Virus record (IMG/VR): IMGVR_UViG_3300034375_005761
Span: 1 to 38,121 of that record
Reading direction: 5' to 3' (one strand)
DNA from: a virus
Length of the DNA: 38,121 nucleotides
This document shows, in pieces, positions 2,439-30,287 of the stretch; position 1 is the stretch's first letter; each line of letters opens with the position of its first letter. The notes under the pieces were generated by a model that did not search any database, was not told the origin of the DNA, and saw only the letters and a list, made by a program, of their open reading frames with translations. The translations under genes were made by a program, and so were the position numbers.

Positions 2439-2604
2439 GAACGAGCATCGTGCTTTATTAAACCGATGGTTGGAGGAGTCCGACATTGAGGATATGGATA
2501 TGGCCAAGATCGCAATGGATGATCTTAACGAGTGGCTGGGTGAGGATGTGCTTGAGTTCGAGAGTGAGATAGAACTTTCGGACGAAGATGAAGAGACAGG
2601 GTAA
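2401..2604 (+). CDS. Small acidic hypothetical protein (67 aa)
   Basis: Not recognised. The protein starts with a short basic part (MRKMTITPHQKFKNEHRALL) and becomes very acidic, with SDIEDMDMAKIAMDDLNEWL and the tail SEIELSDEDEETG. It overlaps the preceding gene by 38 bases and the following nuclease-like gene by 17 bases, all in different frames. The ATG at 2401 is the first start in the frame, and no clear Shine-Dalgarno site is visible. An acidic partner for the basic proteins upstream or the nuclease downstream is possible but unproven. Confidence 0.55.
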   Translation: MRKMTITPHQKFKNEHRALLNRWLEESDIEDMDMAKIAMDDLNEWLGEDVLEFESEIELSDEDEETG

Positions 2605-3001
2605 CCTGTACGAGCAGATATTTTTTACTGAAGCTCTAAGGCAGGGGCTTGAGGTTTTTATCCCGTTAGGAGATTACCTGCCACAGGACTGCATCGTTAT
2701 GAACCAGGCAGGCCGCCCATTTAAAGTGCAGATAAAAGGCACAGGCGGATTAATGAAAGAGGGCAGAGGTGGACTCGGCAGGTACATGGTAACGGTGGCA
2801 ACAGGATCGAAGGAGAAAGACCCAATTGATTGCACCAAGGTCGATGTGGTGGCGGCCTATGTTGAGCCTAAGAACTGTTGGTACTTAATTCCATGCCTTC
2901 AATTAACAGGAATCCGTGCAAGTTTATGCCCTCACAATCCAAGCAGTCGGGGCAAATATGAGAAGTTTTTAGAGTGCTGGGATATATTTAAAATTTCCTG
3001 A
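2588..3001 (+). CDS. PD-(D/E)xK endonuclease-like protein
   Basis: The 137-residue protein looks like the small PD-(D/E)xK nuclease group that includes group I intron-associated enzymes and resolvase-like folds. The supporting features, in order, are an N-terminal helix (NLYEQIFFTEALRQGLEV), an Asp in LGDYLPQDCIV near residue 34, then a strand with FKVQIKG, where Gln48 and Lys50 sit as the usual (D/E/Q)xK pair, and a later strand with DVVAAYV and WYLIP. Such enzymes cut DNA with Mg2+. It sits between portal and scaffold rather than with the replication genes, which is odd; a role in packaging, or a captured homing-type nuclease, are both possible. The assignment is from motif order only. Confidence 0.6.
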   Translation: MKRQGNLYEQIFFTEALRQGLEVFIPLGDYLPQDCIVMNQAGRPFKVQIKGTGGLMKEGRGGLGRYMVTVATGSKEKDPIDCTKVDVVAAYVEPKNCWYLIPCLQLTGIRASLCPHNPSSRGKYEKFLECWDIFKIS

Positions 3002-3019
3002 GAAATAGGTTTTTTTTTC

Positions 3020-3028
3020 TGCTAAAAT
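3020..3028 (+). promoter_or_regulatory. Possible extended -10 promoter for the scaffold/capsid operon
   Basis: TGCTAAAAT fits an extended -10 element (TGn followed by TAAAAT, one mismatch from TATAAT). There is no convincing -35, as is allowed for this promoter type. A transcript would begin near 3035, directly at the first leader hairpin. Confidence 0.3.
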
Positions 3029-3036
3029 TGTCATTG

Positions 3037-3083
3037 GCGGGGTGTATCTACTCCGCAGAACAATGTAAGAGAGTGCGAACTCT
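3037..3083 (+). promoter_or_regulatory. Two leader hairpins before the scaffold gene
   Basis: Hairpin 1 (3037..3056) pairs GCGGGGT with ACTCCGC around a 6-base loop (7 bp with one G-U). Hairpin 2 (3070..3083) pairs AGAGT with ACTCT around GCGA, a GNRA-class tetraloop. Neither is followed by a T-run, so they are not terminators. They would stand at the very 5' end of a transcript made from the extended -10 element at 3020, where stem-loops commonly protect mRNA; that function is inferred. Confidence 0.4.
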
Positions 3084-3101: not shown

Positions 3102-4127
3102 ATGGCAGAAACAGTTATAAGCGAGGCTCCGGCTGAATCCACGGGAGCAGAAGACAATCAAGCGCGAGGCCCAATGAGCATGGAAGATTTGGCGGCAAGT
3201 TTTGTCGATCAAGTCGAACAGGATCAGGAGGCCACTACCGATGAGGCGAAAGCAGAAGTCACCGAGAGTTCTGAAGACGCAGAAGCAGAGGTAGAAGAAG
3301 ATGTTCTTTCACAGTCTATTTCCGAAGAGGAAGAAGATACCGAAGAAGAGGCAGAGGAATCTGATGATGAGGAGGACGAAAGCGAAAGCGAAGAACCTCC
3401 CAAGGCAGTAGGCAAGCTCTTAAAGCAAGTAAATAAACTTACCGCACGGGCTAAATCAGCGGAAGAAACCGCAGAAGCACTCAAGGCCGAGATCCAAAAC
3501 CTCAAAACCCAAGGCACTTCTCAAGGAGAACCGGTCAAGCAACCTGAACTGGAAAACATTCAATCATTTGAAGATTTGAAAAAACTCCAACAGGAAGCAC
3601 AAGCCGCCAAGAAGTTCGCATTGCAGAACATCGGTAAAGATTATGTAGAAGTCGATGGCAAGGAATACAGCGATGATGACATCCGTAATATCCTAACCCA
3701 GGCAGACGAGTACCTTACCGAAAAGATTCCAGCACGGGAGAAATACCTAGCTGAAAAATCGCAATGGCAACAGGACACTATCACAACCCATTCATGGTTG
3801 AACGAAGATAGTGAGTTAGCAGAGACCCGCCAGGAGTTATTCGGTAATCTTAAAAAGCAGTACAGTCATGTACTAAACAATCTTCCCAATGGTGACTTTA
3901 TCGCCGCCACTCTCGTAAGGGGTATCGAAGCGATCAAGGCCGACCAAAAGGCAAGCACCGCACCAAAAAAGAAAGTGGTCAAGCCCAAGGCTCCACCTCC
4001 TACCGATGGAGGTAATGTATCTCCTCCTGTGGAGAACGCCGCAACCCGGAAACAGAAACAGAAAGAATCGATTAAGCGCAAAGGACCACTCTCGGCTAAC
4101 GATCTAGCCGCTTATCTCAGCGACTAA
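3102..4127 (+). CDS. Capsid assembly scaffolding protein
   Basis: The 341-residue protein has the make-up of a phage scaffold: an extremely acidic, low-complexity first third (long Glu/Asp/Ser runs around residues 45-100), a predicted coiled coil around residues 100-175, a central helical part, and a basic C-terminus rich in Lys (PKKKVVKPKAPPP and KQKQKESIKRKG) that in scaffold families contacts the capsid shell. It lies immediately before the major capsid gene, the standard place. The protein would guide procapsid assembly and leave before or during DNA filling. The identity follows from composition, architecture and context, not from a conserved motif. Start at ATG 3102; only a weak purine tract precedes it. 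Confidence 0.75.
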   Translation: MAETVISEAPAESTGAEDNQARGPMSMEDLAASFVDQVEQDQEATTDEAKAEVTESSEDAEAEVEEDVLSQSISEEEEDTEEEAEESDDEEDESESEEPPKAVGKLLKQVNKLTARAKSAEETAEALKAEIQNLKTQGTSQGEPVKQPELENIQSFEDLKKLQQEAQAAKKFALQNIGKDYVEVDGKEYSDDDIRNILTQADEYLTEKIPAREKYLAEKSQWQQDTITTHSWLNEDSELAETRQELFGNLKKQYSHVLNNLPNGDFIAATLVRGIEAIKADQKASTAPKKKVVKPKAPPPTDGGNVSPPVENAATRKQKQKESIKRKGPLSANDLAAYLSD

Positions 4128-4162: not shown

Positions 4163-5188
4163 ATGGCAATAGCAACTTCCTACAATGTAACTGCTGGTAA
4201 AGGCGCAAAGGAAAATTTAGAATCACTTCTGAAGACTGTCGAGCCGACAGAAACCCCTTTATATAGCACACTCTCACAATCCGCCGCTCCTAAAGCGACA
4301 CTTAACGAATGGCTCGTAGATAGCCTTGAAGATCCATCCGGCGCAAGTGCAAATATCGATGGTGTTGATCTTACTCTTAGCTCCGCTAAAAACTTGATCG
4401 ACTCTCGCGCTCGCTTGACAAACCGGGTCGCCACGCTCAGAGATTATTTTGCTGTCAGTCGTCAGGCTGAAATGGTTGATGTCGCTCCTGGCGGATCTTT
4501 ATTTTCAAGCAGCAAGGCTAAGTCCCTCATCCAGCTCAAGCGCTCTATTGAAGTGGCGATTGCTTCGGGTAATGACCAAGCTGCTGGATCAGGTTCCGCA
4601 GGTGCAACGATGGCAGGACTTGGTTTATGGTCTGATCCAGCCGCAACTGGTAACACCTTCGACACAACTGCTAAAGAAGCATTCCGCGCAGTAAGTGGTT
4701 CCCGTGTATCCTTGGCATCCTTGACCGAAGATGGTCTTCGTGGACTTCTTCAGTCTGTTTACACCGCTTCTGGCGCTAAGAGCAACTTTAAGTTGTTTGC
4801 CGCTCCTGCTGTGATGAACAAGATCACCGACTACACTCGTGCAACTGTCACCAATAATCCCAGTTATCAATTAACTCAGGATGTTAGTGGTAAGTCCTTG
4901 ATTAGAAGTGTTTTAAGCTATGTTTCGGACTTCGGAACCATTGATATCATCCCTGACCTATTTCTTGGACGATTCGATGGCACTCCATCCGGCACAGACA
5001 CCGCTCTTGGAACTGTAAACACCGACCGTGCTTATCTCATTCCTGACGATGACACCGTATCCTTGAAATTCTTGGAAGGTATCTCCGTAATGGAACTGCC
5101 CGACAACGGTGGTGGAAAGAGAGCTTTCTGTGAGGCTATGTTGACCCTTCGTGTCGGCAATCCACGCGCTCTTGGTTCTATCGTTTAA
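4163..5188 (+). CDS. Major capsid protein, SU10/DUF5309-like
   Basis: At 341 residues, this protein resembles the SU10-type major capsid family (HK97 fold). The N-terminal part has the characteristic TETPLYSTLSQSAAPKA and NEWLVDSL stretches, the family's 'isP.eTPf.s....a....eW..D.L' pattern. Later parts include a segment rich in Gly and Ala (GSGSAGATMAGLGLW) and KLFAAPAVMNKITDY. It follows the scaffold gene and is followed by a strong terminator, as expected for the most abundant transcript. The leader has no Shine-Dalgarno site: about 35 bases before the ATG contain almost only A, T and C. No decoration protein gene is adjacent. Confidence 0.85.
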   Translation: MAIATSYNVTAGKGAKENLESLLKTVEPTETPLYSTLSQSAAPKATLNEWLVDSLEDPSGASANIDGVDLTLSSAKNLIDSRARLTNRVATLRDYFAVSRQAEMVDVAPGGSLFSSSKAKSLIQLKRSIEVAIASGNDQAAGSGSAGATMAGLGLWSDPAATGNTFDTTAKEAFRAVSGSRVSLASLTEDGLRGLLQSVYTASGAKSNFKLFAAPAVMNKITDYTRATVTNNPSYQLTQDVSGKSLIRSVLSYVSDFGTIDIIPDLFLGRFDGTPSGTDTALGTVNTDRAYLIPDDDTVSLKFLEGISVMELPDNGGGKRAFCEAMLTLRVGNPRALGSIV

Positions 5189-23288: not shown

Positions 23289-23696
23289 ATGAGAAATAAA
23301 ATTAATAAACGAAATAAGTTAGCCTGCGTTTTATCCTATAAAGGACAGACCCGAAAATGTTTTGCACGAGATTGGGACCATTTAAAGCAACGAGGTTCTG
23401 AAGCTATTCGGAGAACCTGGTACTTATGGTGTAATGTTAATCTCGCAGATTTGCATTCAGTCAGTTCTAATGAATGGCATGGAATCGTTTATAGCGTCTG
23501 CGGGAAGTCGATCAATGTGCGGGTATATGACCGCGAGGACAGAGTTAAAGAGGCAGCCAAGCTGTTGGGTTCGATTGGTGGATCTTCAGGAACGGGTAAG
23601 AAAAAAGTTCGTGGAGATTCTAATTATTACCGAGTTCTCAGATATAAAGGGCTTGAGAAACAAAGAAAAAAACACGATAAATCCAATAATAAATAG
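23289..23696 (+). CDS. Hypothetical basic protein (135 aa)
   Basis: Not recognised. The protein is basic, with RNKINKRNKLACVLSYKGQT at the start, a Trp/Cys/His-containing middle (AIRRTWYLWCNVNLADLHSV) and a Lys-rich tail (GLEKQRKKHDKSNNK). It might bind nucleic acid because of its charge. It is the first gene after the late region and precedes the promoter and structured leader of the early genes, so it could be an early or host-takeover protein. The start is the first ATG in frame, and no Shine-Dalgarno site is clear. Its codon use is more A/T-rich than the genes after 24124. Confidence 0.6.
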   Translation: MRNKINKRNKLACVLSYKGQTRKCFARDWDHLKQRGSEAIRRTWYLWCNVNLADLHSVSSNEWHGIVYSVCGKSINVRVYDREDRVKEAAKLLGSIGGSSGTGKKKVRGDSNYYRVLRYKGLEKQRKKHDKSNNK

Positions 23697-23735
23697 GGGG
23701 ATATGTATTTTTTTGAACTTTTTATCACATGAGTG

Positions 23736-23762
23736 TTGACAGGATAAGTTTTATGTTAATAT
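23736..23762 (+). promoter_or_regulatory. Sigma-70-like promoter for the early operon
   Basis: A perfect TTGACA (23736..23741) is followed 15 bases later by TAATAT (23757..23762), an acceptable -10 at slightly short spacing; AATATT lies at 16. Transcription would start near 23769 and give a leader of about 160 bases before the ATG at 23930. Confidence 0.5.
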
Positions 23763-25696: not shown

Positions 25697-25779
25697 AATA
25701 TTTAAAGCGAGCCTTTCATTTTGCATGGTTTCTATGCGTAGTAATTAAGGAGGGAATCAATGGCTATTTTAAGCGCTAA
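25693..25779 (+). CDS. Tiny hydrophobic peptide (28 aa)
   Basis: ATG overlaps the DnaA-like gene stop. The product is MKYLKRAFHFAWFLCVVIKE followed by GINGYFKR, with one short hydrophobic stretch. It overlaps the start of the next gene and contains that gene's ribosome site (AAGGAGGG), so it might be only a translational coupling leader. It begins MKY like the 26-residue peptide before the DnaA-like gene. Confidence 0.3.
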   Translation: MKYLKRAFHFAWFLCVVIKEGINGYFKR

Positions 25780-26569
25780 ACCAAAGCGGGGTAGTGGTGG
25801 CCATTGGTACACCGCTACAGGAGAACCTCGCCACACCATGCCCTTGGCAAAAGGTGACGGGGAAAGAAATACTACCTTGAGGGATGCCAAGAAGCACAAG
25901 CTCTTTCCCAGCGTCACCGGTATACTTGGATTGTTTGCCAAGCCTGGGCTTGATCGCTGGAAACAGGATCAGCTTTTACGGATAGCTTACGACAACCCTC
26001 GTAAAATGGACGAAACTTTTGAACGATTTGCAGATAGGTGCTTGATTGAGCATGAGAAGCCTGTGGAAGAGGCGGCTGACTTTGGTACGAGAATACACGA
26101 TGCAATCGAGAAGTATTTTGAGGGCTTTCCTGTGGATGATGATCTGCTTGAGTATGTACAGCCTGCATTCGATTGGAAGCAGGAGAATCAATTACGATTC
26201 ATTGAGCGGGAGAAGATGATGGTCAATCTTGAGCATGGATTTGCGGGAACTGTGGATATCGTAGGAAAGGGACCCGAGGGGCAGAACTTCATAGTCGATT
26301 GGAAGACAAGGAAGACGAAGAAGGGGGTCAAGGTAACAAGTTACGATTTTCAGATTCATCAGATTGCGGCCTATGGGGCTACCTACTTTGGCGAGGATCG
26401 GATGATGAGCGAGGGAATCTACGGAGCAAATTGCTACCTGTCCTCAACGGAACCAGGTCGCTTTGAAGTTATCAGCTACAGCCCCGATGAACTTCGGGAC
26501 GCATGGAAAGTATTTAAGGGAGTGTGTGAGATATGGCGGAGCCTGAAGAACTACGATCCGAGGGGATAA
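25760..26569 (+). CDS. RecB/Cas4-like PD-(D/E)xK exonuclease
   Basis: The 269-residue protein has all elements of the RecB-type nuclease group in order: FGTRIHDAIEKYF with His113, then EKMMVNLEHGFAGTVDIVG with Asp166, FIVDWKTRKT with Asp180 and Lys182, and the downstream Gln/Tyr motif FQIHQIAAYGATYF. These enzymes degrade DNA ends with two metal ions. Length is normal for single-domain phage members. In phages they produce single-stranded ends for recombination or recycle host DNA. A strong AAGGAGGG lies 6 bases before the ATG, the best ribosome site of the early region. It lies just upstream of the methyltransferase. Confidence 0.85.
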   Translation: MAILSAKPKRGSGGHWYTATGEPRHTMPLAKGDGERNTTLRDAKKHKLFPSVTGILGLFAKPGLDRWKQDQLLRIAYDNPRKMDETFERFADRCLIEHEKPVEEAADFGTRIHDAIEKYFEGFPVDDDLLEYVQPAFDWKQENQLRFIEREKMMVNLEHGFAGTVDIVGKGPEGQNFIVDWKTRKTKKGVKVTSYDFQIHQIAAYGATYFGEDRMMSEGIYGANCYLSSTEPGRFEVISYSPDELRDAWKVFKGVCEIWRSLKNYDPRG

Positions 26570-26814
26570 ATAACACACAGGGTCCACGGAATTGGCGGGA
26601 TGAAACCTTTTTCAAAAAAAGGAAAGTAGTCAATCCAATGCTGACTTATCAGGAGGCCAACGATGGATGGTATCGGGCATTTAATAAATGCCAGTTGGCT
26701 TATGATTTGAAGGGCAGGAAGTACAGAACGGATATCCCGAGGGTACTGCCCAACCCCGATGATTTGGACATAAGGCGGAAAAAAGGAGGCAGAGAAGATG
26801 GCGAAGTTTATTAG
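26533..26814 (+). CDS. Hypothetical protein (93 aa)
   Basis: Not recognised. The protein is charged, with GPRNWRDETFFKKRKVVNPM, LTYQEANDGWYRAFNKCQLA and the tail RRKKGGREDGEVY. It overlaps the nuclease by 37 bases and the methyltransferase by 17 bases in other frames. The end of its coding part carries the AAGGAGG ribosome site of the methyltransferase. Its role may be to help either neighbour, but there is no motif to say so. Confidence 0.5.
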   Translation: MAEPEELRSEGINNTQGPRNWRDETFFKKRKVVNPMLTYQEANDGWYRAFNKCQLAYDLKGRKYRTDIPRVLPNPDDLDIRRKKGGREDGEVY

Positions 26815-28375
26815 CTTATTTGCTGGGGTTGGTGGATTTGACCTCGGTATGGAACAGGCGGGGCATGAATGCGTTGCCCAAGTGGAATGGGATAAGAATG
26901 CGGCGGGTGTATTAAAGCACAGATGGCCGAATGTTCCCCTGTTCTGCGATGTATCAAAAGTAACAGCGGATGATCTGCCCGATGCGGATTTTATAACATA
27001 CGGATTTCCATGCCAGGACTTGAGCGTGGCCGGTAAAAGAGAGGGATTAGATGGAAAACGATCAGGATTATTCTATGAAGCAACTAGACTTATTCGGGAA
27101 CTGCGAACCCGAGGATGCAGGCTACGCTTTGCGGTGGCAGAAAATGTCGGTGGATTGTTCTCCGCAGATGATGGTGTCGCACTTGCAAGGTGCATCCGAG
27201 AGCTACTCGACAGCGGGGCTTGTGAAACAGGATGGCGCTTGGTCGACAGCCAGTATTTCGGTGTGGCCCAAAGACGGAAGCGCGTGTTCATTGTCTCAGA
27301 TTTTGGAGGCGAATCCTGCGATGAAATACTCGCTATCACCGAAAGCCTGCCAGGGTATCCTGCGCCGAGCCGAAAAGCGGGGAAAGGAACTGCCGGAGAT
27401 GCTGGAGCGGGCTTTACAGCGAGTAGCTTCGGAGGGTACGAGCAAGGATGCGGAACCCTGCGAAGCCAAGGCGGAGATTTAGGCGGAGGGAGTGAGACGC
27501 TTGCGGTAAATGCCGCATTCAGCGATGGAAGCCAAACAAGCTCAAGCCTGACCACCCGATGCCATGATCAGTTCATGCCCGACAAGGGCAACTTCTGTGC
27601 GGTGATACAGGCTCAATCCACAGGAAGTGATCCTGACCTAATGGCCACGCTATGTGCGAAGGATAATGATAAGATTGGATCGAACCAATGGGTGAAGGAG
27701 GGGAAGGCGATTATTGAAGGCGTAGATTGGTACAACAATGCAGTTACGGGTGATATAAATCATACCCTTAAAATAGGTGGAGATGTACCTGGTGTAATCG
27801 AGCAAAAAGAAACCTACTGCCTTCAAGGTGGTGGAGAGACTTCGCAGAGTTCGCAAGGTAGCGGAGTAAATAAGGATGTAGCTTTTACCCTTAATGGGTT
27901 GGATAAGCATGGGGTAGCTTACGAGCAAGAAGGTATCGCATTTGAGCCTCGAAGTGCAGACGGCGAACCTAGAATAACAGGTGATATTAAAGAGGTTGTC
28001 AGCCCTACCTTAAACTGCATGGGCGGAGGGCAGCGTGAACCTTCAGTCGTCTCATGGAACGGAGACACAACCCCCAAGGCTTCCGAGGATGTATCGGTAA
28101 CTCTGCGTAGCCAGCAAGGCGGGGAAGGCGTGGGGGTGGCTCATGCTTTAACCGTCCGCCGACTCACTCCAATCGAATGCGAACGACTACAGGGATTCCC
28201 CGATAATTGGACATCGGAAAAGATGGAACTGATCCTTGAGGGGAACGAGTGGAAGGCTACCGGCAAGGTGGTCAAACAGGCAGATGGTCCACGCTATAAG
28301 GCGATGGGCAATGCCGTCACCGTCAATGTGGCTGAGTGGATAGGGAAACAGATTGGGAAGGTTTTAAACAAATGA
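26798..28375 (+). CDS. DNA (cytosine-5) methyltransferase
   Basis: This 525-residue enzyme transfers a methyl group from S-adenosylmethionine to C5 of cytosine, probably protecting phage DNA from host nucleases. Motif I is FAGVGGFDLGMEQAG, motif IV is GFPCQDLSVAG with catalytic Cys72, motif VI is AENVGG (115-119) and motif VIII is QRRKRV (158-163). Motifs IX and X appear as RLTPIECERLQGFPDNW and YKAMGNAVTVNVAEWIG near the C-terminus. Between VIII and IX is a very long target-recognition region of about 275 residues. AAGGAGG precedes the ATG by 8 bases. A second gene is nested in the plus-one frame over residues 85-229. No paired restriction enzyme is seen. Confidence 0.95.
   Translation: MAKFISLFAGVGGFDLGMEQAGHECVAQVEWDKNAAGVLKHRWPNVPLFCDVSKVTADDLPDADFITYGFPCQDLSVAGKREGLDGKRSGLFYEATRLIRELRTRGCRLRFAVAENVGGLFSADDGVALARCIRELLDSGACETGWRLVDSQYFGVAQRRKRVFIVSDFGGESCDEILAITESLPGYPAPSRKAGKGTAGDAGAGFTASSFGGYEQGCGTLRSQGGDLGGGSETLAVNAAFSDGSQTSSSLTTRCHDQFMPDKGNFCAVIQAQSTGSDPDLMATLCAKDNDKIGSNQWVKEGKAIIEGVDWYNNAVTGDINHTLKIGGDVPGVIEQKETYCLQGGGETSQSSQGSGVNKDVAFTLNGLDKHGVAYEQEGIAFEPRSADGEPRITGDIKEVVSPTLNCMGGGQREPSVVSWNGDTTPKASEDVSVTLRSQQGGEGVGVAHALTVRRLTPIECERLQGFPDNWTSEKMELILEGNEWKATGKVVKQADGPRYKAMGNAVTVNVAEWIGKQIGKVLNK
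27051..27482 (+). CDS. Nested plus-one-frame protein inside the methyltransferase gene (143 aa)
   Basis: The frame is fully inside the methyltransferase gene. It encodes YSTAGLVKQDGAWSTASISV, WPKDGSACSLSQILE and YSLSPKACQGILRRAEKRGK. The pattern 'W..D...CSLS.iLe......yfLSpKAc.GILRRAekRGkeLP..L..AL' is, from memory, that of a widespread phage protein of unknown role that is often found with cytosine methyltransferases. AGAGGG lies 5 bases before its ATG. In the other frame the same DNA holds motif VIII and a conserved ESLPGYPAPSRKAGKG stretch, so both proteins are constrained. The role is unknown; regulation or partnership with the methyltransferase is conceivable. Confidence 0.7.
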   Translation: MENDQDYSMKQLDLFGNCEPEDAGYALRWQKMSVDCSPQMMVSHLQGASESYSTAGLVKQDGAWSTASISVWPKDGSACSLSQILEANPAMKYSLSPKACQGILRRAEKRGKELPEMLERALQRVASEGTSKDAEPCEAKAEI

Positions 28376-28485: not shown

Positions 28486-28707
28486 ATGAAAAAAATAACA
28501 GAATATAAAATGGGATTGGGATTACCCCGTGGATCAAAGGTAATCGTAAAGGCGGGAAATAGGCAGGCAGATATCAGATTGGTCGAGCTTGAGGATGGTG
28601 GACATAATTGGCGTTTGCAGATCGATAGGGATCTCCCCGAAACAGAATATCCAACCCTCGAAAATGCAATCCTATCGGCAGAAACTTTATTTCGGGAAGT
28701 GGTATGA
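28486..28707 (+). CDS. Hypothetical protein (73 aa)
   Basis: Not recognised. The product is a small beta/alpha protein, MKKITEYKMGLGLPRGSKVI followed by VKAGNRQADIRLVELEDGGH and a C-terminal helix NAILSAETLFREVV. It lies between the methyltransferase and the polymerase and overlaps the polymerase start (ATGA), suggesting coupled translation. No Shine-Dalgarno site is seen before it. Confidence 0.55.
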   Translation: MKKITEYKMGLGLPRGSKVIVKAGNRQADIRLVELEDGGHNWRLQIDRDLPETEYPTLENAILSAETLFREVV

Positions 28708-30287
28708 TTGTAGCATTCGACCTCGAAACCTACTGGACGAAGAAATACTCGGTGACCACTATCGGTCTCGACCGGTATGTGAAGCACCCCGACTTCAAGG
28801 TCACCCTGGTATCCATCGTAGCAGAGGATGGATTTGAATGGGTAGGCAAGCCACAGGATATGCCGGCAGACCGCCTAAACGGTCATACCCTAATCTCCCA
28901 CAATGCCGAGTTTGATTCGGTCTGTGCGAGGGCGGCCATAACCAAGGGACAGATGCCCCAGTTTATGCCTGCGGATTGGATATGTACGGCAGACATGGCA
29001 TCGTATCACCAGCTACCCCGACCACTCTCCTCGGTATATAAAGAACTATTTGATGAGGAATTATCGAAGGATGCCCGTGAACAGATGGCGGGATTATCCG
29101 TTGAAGATATTCAGGCGAACTCTAATTTTATCAATTACGCTTTAGAAGATAGTCGAGCCTGTCTCCGTGTATATCGGAAACTCGATGTCGGATTTTCAAG
29201 GAAAGAAAGAACACTTTCTGCCATCACTCGCCGAATCGCAAACAGGGGATTACCGATAGATGGTCCACTGTGCCAGCAGTTCATCGAGAAGATGGAAAAG
29301 GTATTAAATGATACCCCCCGCCAAACAACTCTATGGAGACAGGCAAACCTCGCCCATACCACTTTAGAGAAATTAATCATGGGTCAGCGGATGGACCGCC
29401 GAGTGCCTACCCGACTGAAATATTGTGGCGCTCCCCATACCAAAAGATGGAGCGGTGCTGGCCTGATAAACTTCCAGGCTATTCCTAACGATAAGGTGGA
29501 AGGGATATCGGTAAGAGAGTGTCTGAAGACACCGGCTGGGCGGGTACTCGTATCGGCAGACTTGTCGCAGATTGAACCGCGCGTAATTGCGTACCTCGTA
29601 GGCGATGCAGACTTTCTCGGCCTAGTCCGTGGAGGGATTGATATATACGAAGCACATGGCCGAGCGTCCAAGCTGTACAATGAGGATGAACCAATGGCCG
29701 AGCTTGCCCCTGAGATGAGAAAGCTTTGCAAGGCTAGACTGCTCGGGCTGGGCTATGGATGTGGAGCAGGTAAGTTTTTGGAAGTAGCCAAAAGCTACGG
29801 GGTATCGATGACAGAATCAGAGGCACAAAAGCAGGTGCTTCTATACCGCGCACAGAACCCCGATGTCATGCTCTCTTGGTCCAAAATGGAAGACCAATTC
29901 CGTGAGTGGATGAAAGATACTCCCGAGTGTATTACATTTACCACATTGTATGACAGCCCAGTCAGCTACTTCAATGCCCATGAGAAGGACGGGGATCTTT
30001 ACGCCTCAACCGTTCGGGGATATGAGCCGGTAAAAATCTATGGGGCTAGGCTGTTTCAAAACATGGTACAGGCAACCGCCAGGCAGATATTTGCAGACGC
30101 GCTTGTGCGCATCGAAGATGCGGGTCTGCCGATCTGCCTCCATGTCCATGACTCTGTAACCGTGGAAGTGGCAGAGAATGAAGGGCAGGCGGCACTCGAT
30201 TTACTTATTCAACTACTAACGAAAGAACCCGATGTCATGCCTGGGCTTCCCTTGGCCGCAGAGGGGGAAATTAAAACACACTACTGA
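28704..30287 (+). CDS. polA: Family A DNA polymerase with 3'-5' exonuclease domain
   Basis: The 527-residue enzyme replicates the phage genome. Exonuclease motifs are AFDLET (Asp6, Glu8), SHNAEFD (Asp71) and YALED (Tyr145, Asp149; DEDDy type). Polymerase motif A is SADLSQIEPR with Asp286, motif B is RKLCKARLLGLGYG (339-352), and motif C is HVHDSVTVEV with Asp483. Compared with E. coli Pol I, the position equal to Phe762 is Leu347, and the Glu normally after the motif C Asp is Ser484. There is no 5'-3' nuclease domain, and the polymerase is compact. Leu at this site is a known viral variant tied to slower or temperate replication. It begins by overlapping the previous stop. Confidence 0.9.
   Translation: MIVAFDLETYWTKKYSVTTIGLDRYVKHPDFKVTLVSIVAEDGFEWVGKPQDMPADRLNGHTLISHNAEFDSVCARAAITKGQMPQFMPADWICTADMASYHQLPRPLSSVYKELFDEELSKDAREQMAGLSVEDIQANSNFINYALEDSRACLRVYRKLDVGFSRKERTLSAITRRIANRGLPIDGPLCQQFIEKMEKVLNDTPRQTTLWRQANLAHTTLEKLIMGQRMDRRVPTRLKYCGAPHTKRWSGAGLINFQAIPNDKVEGISVRECLKTPAGRVLVSADLSQIEPRVIAYLVGDADFLGLVRGGIDIYEAHGRASKLYNEDEPMAELAPEMRKLCKARLLGLGYGCGAGKFLEVAKSYGVSMTESEAQKQVLLYRAQNPDVMLSWSKMEDQFREWMKDTPECITFTTLYDSPVSYFNAHEKDGDLYASTVRGYEPVKIYGARLFQNMVQATARQIFADALVRIEDAGLPICLHVHDSVTVEVAENEGQAALDLLIQLLTKEPDVMPGLPLAAEGEIKTHY

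Follow-up and report, generated by a model that had tools for sequence, protein, structure and literature searches.

The C5 cytosine DNA methyltransferases M.AquI and M.EcoHK31I are made as two polypeptides, the larger of which carries motifs I-VIII; the small subunit holds motif IX in M.EcoHK31I and motifs IX and X in M.AquI, and the pieces of C5 enzymes that were split artificially after motif VIII, ahead of the target-recognition domain, can complement (PMC3404938). Reading frames hidden within phage methylase genes have also been described: mycobacteriophage DNA methylases can contain the ShiLan domain, a homing insertion of sporadic occurrence whose product is an HNH nuclease, or other HNH insertions that lie out of frame (PMC11855218).

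Here we describe a gene nested in the +1 frame of a C5 methyltransferase gene in a virus record of 38,121 bases, which is referred to as the window. Its product is given the working name P1p, which is distinct from phage P1. Comparison of sequences indicates that P1p is a real, ancient and unannotated overlapping gene, new within the open-access literature searched. That literature yielded no earlier report of a nested gene in C5 methyltransferases. The setting of P1p is known, in overlapping genes and in two-polypeptide C5 methyltransferases, but its split has not been described there.

As in M.AquI and M.EcoHK31I, the large chain of the P1p system carries C5 motifs I-VIII. Unlike in those enzymes, the large chain also keeps motifs IX and X, while P1p, which has neither, is nested in the +1 frame over motifs VI-VIII and appears to carry the entry segment of the target-recognition domain. 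Since motif IX is not found in P1p, we do not assign the system to the M.AquI/M.EcoHK31I type, and only propose that it works like one. The nearest case in that literature is ShiLan, which like P1p is an out-of-frame ORF concealed within the gene of a phage DNA methylase; P1p differs from it in having no HNH, in lying over conserved catalytic motifs, and in its presence in 77 of the 77 relatives tested.

Results

A reading frame nested in a phage methyltransferase gene

The methyltransferase gene of the window (26798-28375, plus strand) encodes a C5 cytosine DNA methyltransferase of 525 residues, identified by PF00145 (E=1.2e-58), TIGR00675 (E=2.5e-56) and PHROG 116 (E=1.5e-79). Around it lie phage replication and packaging genes: an exonuclease (25760-26569), a DNA polymerase (28704-30287), a dNMP kinase, a primase/helicase and a terminase. 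Motifs I-VIII occupy residues 1-168 of the enzyme and are followed by a long variable region, with motifs IX and X at the end; the PF00145 match spans residues 3-167 and thus marks a large chain with C5 motifs I-VIII. Motif VIII (QRRKRVF; 27269-27289, plus strand) is placed by the translation and by the alignment to canonical enzymes, which stops at this motif. Motif IX (RRLTPIECERLQGF; 28157-28198, plus strand), placed by translation and profile alignment, belongs to the methyltransferase frame and not to that of P1p.

The P1p gene (27051-27482, plus strand) starts with ATG and encodes 143 residues. A nested protein of this length had been proposed in the initial annotation, and we verified the ORF, the relation of the frames, the motifs CSLSQILE and LSPKACQGILRRAEKRGKELP in the +1 reading of the overlap, and ESLPGYPAPSRKAGKG in the methyltransferase frame. 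The overlap begins just past motif IV, takes in motif VI (ENV) and motif VIII (QRRKRVF), and goes on for about 60 residues more. The Shine-Dalgarno-like site AGAGGG that had been noted five bases before the P1p ATG is found at 27040-27045 (plus strand), and an in-frame TAG directly adjoins the ATG in the window sequence. The conserved C-terminal core of P1p (CSLSQILE...LSPKACQGILRRAEKRGKELPEMLERAL) lies at 27285-27425 on the plus strand, its start overlapping motif VIII of the methyltransferase.

Both frames of the overlap are under purifying selection

Synonymous-codon shuffles of the window methyltransferase had a mean of 5.3-5.4 stops in the +1 overlap, and only 0.05-0.15% of them were open. 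For the AT-rich gene of Clostridioides phage phiCD27, 8.2 stops are expected in the +1 stretch and none of 3000 shuffles was open; in GC-rich members the +1 frame is open by chance in up to about 30% of shuffles. To estimate dN/dS, substitutions were classed according to what they change in each of the two frames; the underlying pairwise counts are non-independent, so intervals were taken from bootstrapped codon columns. In the window clade the +1 frame has a dN/dS of 0.41 (0.29-0.55) across the overlap and 0.27 (0.13-0.39) in the core, against 1.00 upstream and 0.97 downstream in the flanks of the same gene. The Bacillota prophage clade gave +1 values of 0.60 for the overlap and 0.42 for the core against 1.08 and 1.02 in the flanks, and viral loci selected by their methyltransferase gave 0.67 and 0.55 against 1.27 and 1.11. 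In the +2 frame dN/dS is at least 1.1 in the window and Bacillota prophage clades.

The methyltransferase frame within the overlap is constrained too (0.42; 0.29-0.55), and its third positions, the freest positions outside the overlap, are suppressed only inside it (0.13 in the core of the window clade compared with 0.26 and 0.33 outside). As both frames are constrained, the overlap DNA encodes two selected proteins, in keeping with the earlier claim that it codes for the motif VI and VIII parts of the methyltransferase together with a second constrained protein; the synonymous-site suppression that had been suggested as a check is seen alongside the low dN/dS of both frames. The first P1p ATG has a Shine-Dalgarno site before it in 61% of the methyltransferase-selected viral loci and 95% of the genome loci, compared with 7% and 11%, respectively, of control out-of-frame ATGs. 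With purifying selection in both frames and its own Shine-Dalgarno-preceded start, P1p is, on the evidence of these comparisons, a same-strand overlapping gene, and its coding status as a genuine nested gene is near certain.

P1p occurs with a methyltransferase across phages, plasmids and bacterial genomes

Loci retrieved with P1p as the query all showed the same +1 relation to a methyltransferase; this set is biased by its query, and the search was therefore repeated with residues 1-84 of the methyltransferase only, which lie upstream of the overlap. This less biased search gave 80 viral loci, of which 77 were long enough, and in all 77 of these methyltransferases P1p was present in the +1 frame, with E of at most 1.1e-23 and at roughly the same distance. 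The suggestion of an ancient conserved two-gene unit, locked together, thus gains support from methyltransferases picked without regard to P1p, and the sequences indicate that P1p and the methyltransferase are such a unit, with obligate pairing. Among 238 loci with the +1 protein, the full methyltransferase frame runs over P1p in 232; in the remaining 6 the methyltransferase sequence is still there, but a frameshift, a stop or a codon that is putatively recoded interrupts it. One locus (L225) is a chimera that retains only the motif VIII part.

No standalone P1p homologue free of methyltransferase sequence was found among the best-scoring loci of each scan, and the earlier expectation that the P1p pattern is often separate from a methyltransferase did not hold. 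A lack of homologues outside methyltransferase overlaps had been named as one half of what would count against the gene, and that half is what the best-scoring loci give; however, no separate copy is to be expected of a partner that seems to be part of the enzyme itself, and the lack of one is no argument against the gene.

In tblastn searches the window protein as query found P1p in 136 phage records and a Bacillota query in 173, the hosts including Vibrio, Mycobacterium, Escherichia, Caulobacter, Streptococcus, Ruminococcus and others. By the same method it is present in 531 plasmid records, chiefly from Escherichia; in bacterial genomes and prophages it occurs chiefly in Clostridia and Bacilli, and in some Pseudomonadota. 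In E. coli phage P1 (L246) P1p lies, unannotated, inside dmt at 2222-2710, with GGAG before an ATG at 2240, which lies near position 66728 of NC_005856. The P1 dmt stretch is matched in 493 of 5426 complete E. coli genomes, 488 of them over at least 80% of the stretch.

Some loci depart from the usual arrangement. In L065, L084, L175, L181, L192 and L208 either the P1p reading shares one frame with an N- or C-terminal portion of the methyltransferase or the enzyme itself is split, and in L192 and L208 the frame switches near a short G run; assembly errors, decay and phase variation could each account for these loci, as could enzymes that are truly split. In L110 and L111 a stop in the methyltransferase frame replaces the invariant Q of QRR in motif VIII, about 270 bases into the P1p ORF at 2748, which suggests that this stop is read as glutamine in those phages.

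Sequence family and predicted fold of P1p

The N-terminal half of P1p is weakly conserved and predicted to be disordered, and the C-terminal half is strongly conserved, with the consensus LSxILExxxPxKYxLSPKACxGILRRAxxRGKxLPxxLxxAL; SPKACQGI served as a search pattern, and its invariance is in part a matter of ascertainment. An AF2 model made from a 24-row alignment (pTM 0.31) has the last 50 residues helical at high confidence and most of the protein at low confidence. Pfam and NCBIfam hold no family for P1p, and Pfam searches with 24 relatives gave nothing beyond chance and no HNH. A Foldseek comparison of the model with the PDB, together with VIA-align, gave no meaningful match, the best being sigma-factor and ParB-like helices with E of at least 3, and the P1p profile matched the sequences of solved structures only at chance level (Sm D3, E=1.5). 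Among the anti-phage defence models of PADLOC there were only weak matches: two were with models of Type II methyltransferases, in line with the segment match described below, and one with a Cas5 model.

PHROG 16143, a family of 139 residues labelled 'DNA methyltransferase', is matched by 20 of the 24 aligned P1p members (best E=1e-13; E=1.5e-4 for the window protein) and is the same protein family as P1p. Its label seems to fit the overlapped gene and not the +1 reading; P1p has no methyltransferase domain.

P1p resembles a segment missing from the frame of the enzyme

In ordinary C5 methyltransferases the entry of the target-recognition domain, about 30 residues past motif VIII, is formed by an in-frame segment that the C-terminal half of P1p resembles. 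In-frame examples of this canonical segment are LGDILELDVDEKYTISDRLWEGHLRRK in L256 and, further on, LREILEDFVDEKYYLNEEK in phi3T. The multi-target C5 methyltransferases of Bacillus phages (phi3T and SPR type) likewise have the C5 motifs and, separating motif VIII from motif IX, a long variable region; unlike the P1p-bearing enzymes, phi3T has this related segment in frame and no +1 protein.

In profile-profile comparison P1p aligns to canonical columns 227-255 with a score of 38.4, while 500 column shuffles scored at most 20.8 (0/500 as high). In P1p-bearing enzymes the alignment of the methyltransferase frame covers just columns 49-218 and 303-361, and P1p therefore fits the missing part. 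The match is short, at about 30-40 residues, with an hhalign probability of 62-74%, and its first residues overlie motif VIII and cannot descend from the canonical segment. An HMM built from in-frame canonical segments only gave a median of 16.8 bits on the +1 frames of 187 P1p-type genes and at most 1.8 bits on those of 76 other C5 methyltransferases, and when it was applied to the DNA beyond motif VIII alone, 181 of the 187 scored above 3 compared with none of the 76 (0/300 shuffles).

The ordinary C5 methyltransferases used here were gathered from whole genomes, as a scan with the methyltransferase of Enterobacter phage EC-W2 gave four loci only. Across 263 distinct enzymes the segment is found in the +1 frame in 187, in frame in 30, in neither place in 46 and in both in none. 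As 170 of the 187 come from P1p-bearing sets, these fractions are not frequencies, although the mutual exclusion is still informative; the 46 enzymes with the segment in neither place, at the thresholds used, mean that it is not universal in the family. Taken at the level of sequence, P1p thus resembles a carrier of the enzyme segment that is absent from the methyltransferase's own frame.

The variable region and cassette exchange at the end of the P1p core

The stretch of the methyltransferase between P1p and motif IX (27482-28153, plus strand) is a variable region with repeated 'TL' units. Among the close relatives of the window that were listed, the distance from motif VIII to motif IX ranges from 117 to 289 residues with one to six 'TL' units, both flanks being nearly identical, and it is probable that the region consists of exchangeable target-recognition modules. 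In the AF2 model of the window methyltransferase only residues 1-180 and 453-525 are confident, and all those in between are at pLDDT <50; this low-confidence middle fits an incomplete target-recognition domain, though it is not proof of one.

In the relatives of phage P1 (L246 and L396-L405) recombination in dmt takes place where the P1p core ends, and three alternative, unrelated cassettes follow there. Each intact cassette variant keeps an LPxxL ending in the +1 reading (LPPLLQMALQ, LPEMLEMALK and LPDILQTSLS). Because the cassettes are swapped at this point and LPxxL is kept, the C-terminal end of P1p appears to behave as part of the recognition region.

Discussion

Our comparisons suggest a model for the action of P1p, which we consider more likely than not, in which P1p is a small second subunit that restores the target-recognition entry segment in trans. 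Ribosomes would start internally on the methyltransferase mRNA and thereby produce P1p as a small second polypeptide. Its helical C-terminus would then dock at the transition from the catalytic to the target-recognition domain and replace the missing segment, so that the active enzyme would be a two-polypeptide C5 methyltransferase, for which M.AquI and M.EcoHK31I are precedents. The position of the segment suggests that the arrangement probably arose through an out-of-frame deletion, which would have moved the segment beside motif VIII, where its own start codon would then have kept it alive; convergence is the alternative. For the wider proposal, that a large lineage of phage C5 methyltransferases including P1 Dmt consists of obligate two-subunit enzymes, with a frameshift-born nested subunit over a catalytic motif and a shared core with exchangeable target-recognition modules, we see the chances as evenly balanced.

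P1p could instead be real without being a catalytic subunit, acting as a regulator, an inhibitor, a specificity switch that mimics the segment, or a co-expressed protein with a separate role in infection. Selection on P1p shows that it has a function and not which one, mimicry of a methyltransferase segment would suit an inhibitor as well, and the weak conservation and predicted disorder of the N-terminal half also fit such roles; nevertheless, a subunit is the simpler explanation both for the obligate pairing and for an enzyme whose own frame lacks the segment, and we regard this alternative as rather unlikely. The likeness between the P1p core and the canonical segment might also be due to convergence or chance, in which case P1p would have been overprinted de novo and its role would be unrelated to target recognition. 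The shortness of the match, and the fact that its first residues lie over motif VIII and are not of canonical descent, speak for this reading, but the match persists when only the DNA beyond motif VIII is considered and falls exactly on the stretch that the enzyme's own frame is missing, which makes such a coincidence improbable.

It is more doubtful still that P1p is made mainly as a fusion, an alternative isoform reached from the methyltransferase frame by programmed ribosomal frameshifting. Five loci (L065, L175, L181, L192 and L208) do join methyltransferase parts and the P1p reading in one frame, yet they look like the result of single-base indels, and several are in metagenome assemblies; no common slippery site is evident by eye, a fused product would lose part of motif VIII, and independent P1p starts with Shine-Dalgarno sites are conserved. 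Programmed frameshifting was set aside on the grounds that the joined loci fit indels and the internal starts carry Shine-Dalgarno sites. The idea that constraint on the methyltransferase and codon bias keep the +1 frame open as a by-product, with no protein made, is already contradicted. The codons of motifs VI-VIII do restrict the content of the +1 frame, and GC-rich members are fairly often open by chance; against this stand the frame-specific contrast in dN/dS with the flanks and with the +2 frame, the suppression of third positions only inside the overlap, a +1 frame that is open in AT-rich genes where about eight stops are expected, and the failure of ordinary methyltransferases with motif VIII to show the segment in +1.

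With P1p, a family of enzymes that has been studied heavily gains a same-strand overlap that is long and deeply conserved; P1p has gone unannotated even in phage P1, a standard laboratory phage. If the two-subunit model is true, phage methyltransferase genes that were recoded for synthesis may have seemed inactive with their second subunit erased, and gene callers and PHROGs mislabel P1p. The model would also suggest a route to overlapping genes in which a frameshifted domain is saved by an internal start, as opposed to a protein overprinted from nothing.

A different division of a C5 methyltransferase is seen in Mycobacterium phage Nyxis (L248), which has no P1p. Its enzyme is annotated as two genes, at 1977-2510 and 2485-3072, which overlap by 26 bases, and the first carries motifs I-VIII in an arrangement reminiscent of M.AquI. 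Elsewhere in the window, two plus-strand ORFs of 135 and 101 residues (23289-23696 and 23434-23739) overlap in different frames, and the neighbouring ORFs at 3102-4127 and 4163-5188, of 341 residues each, are possibly a duplicated gene.
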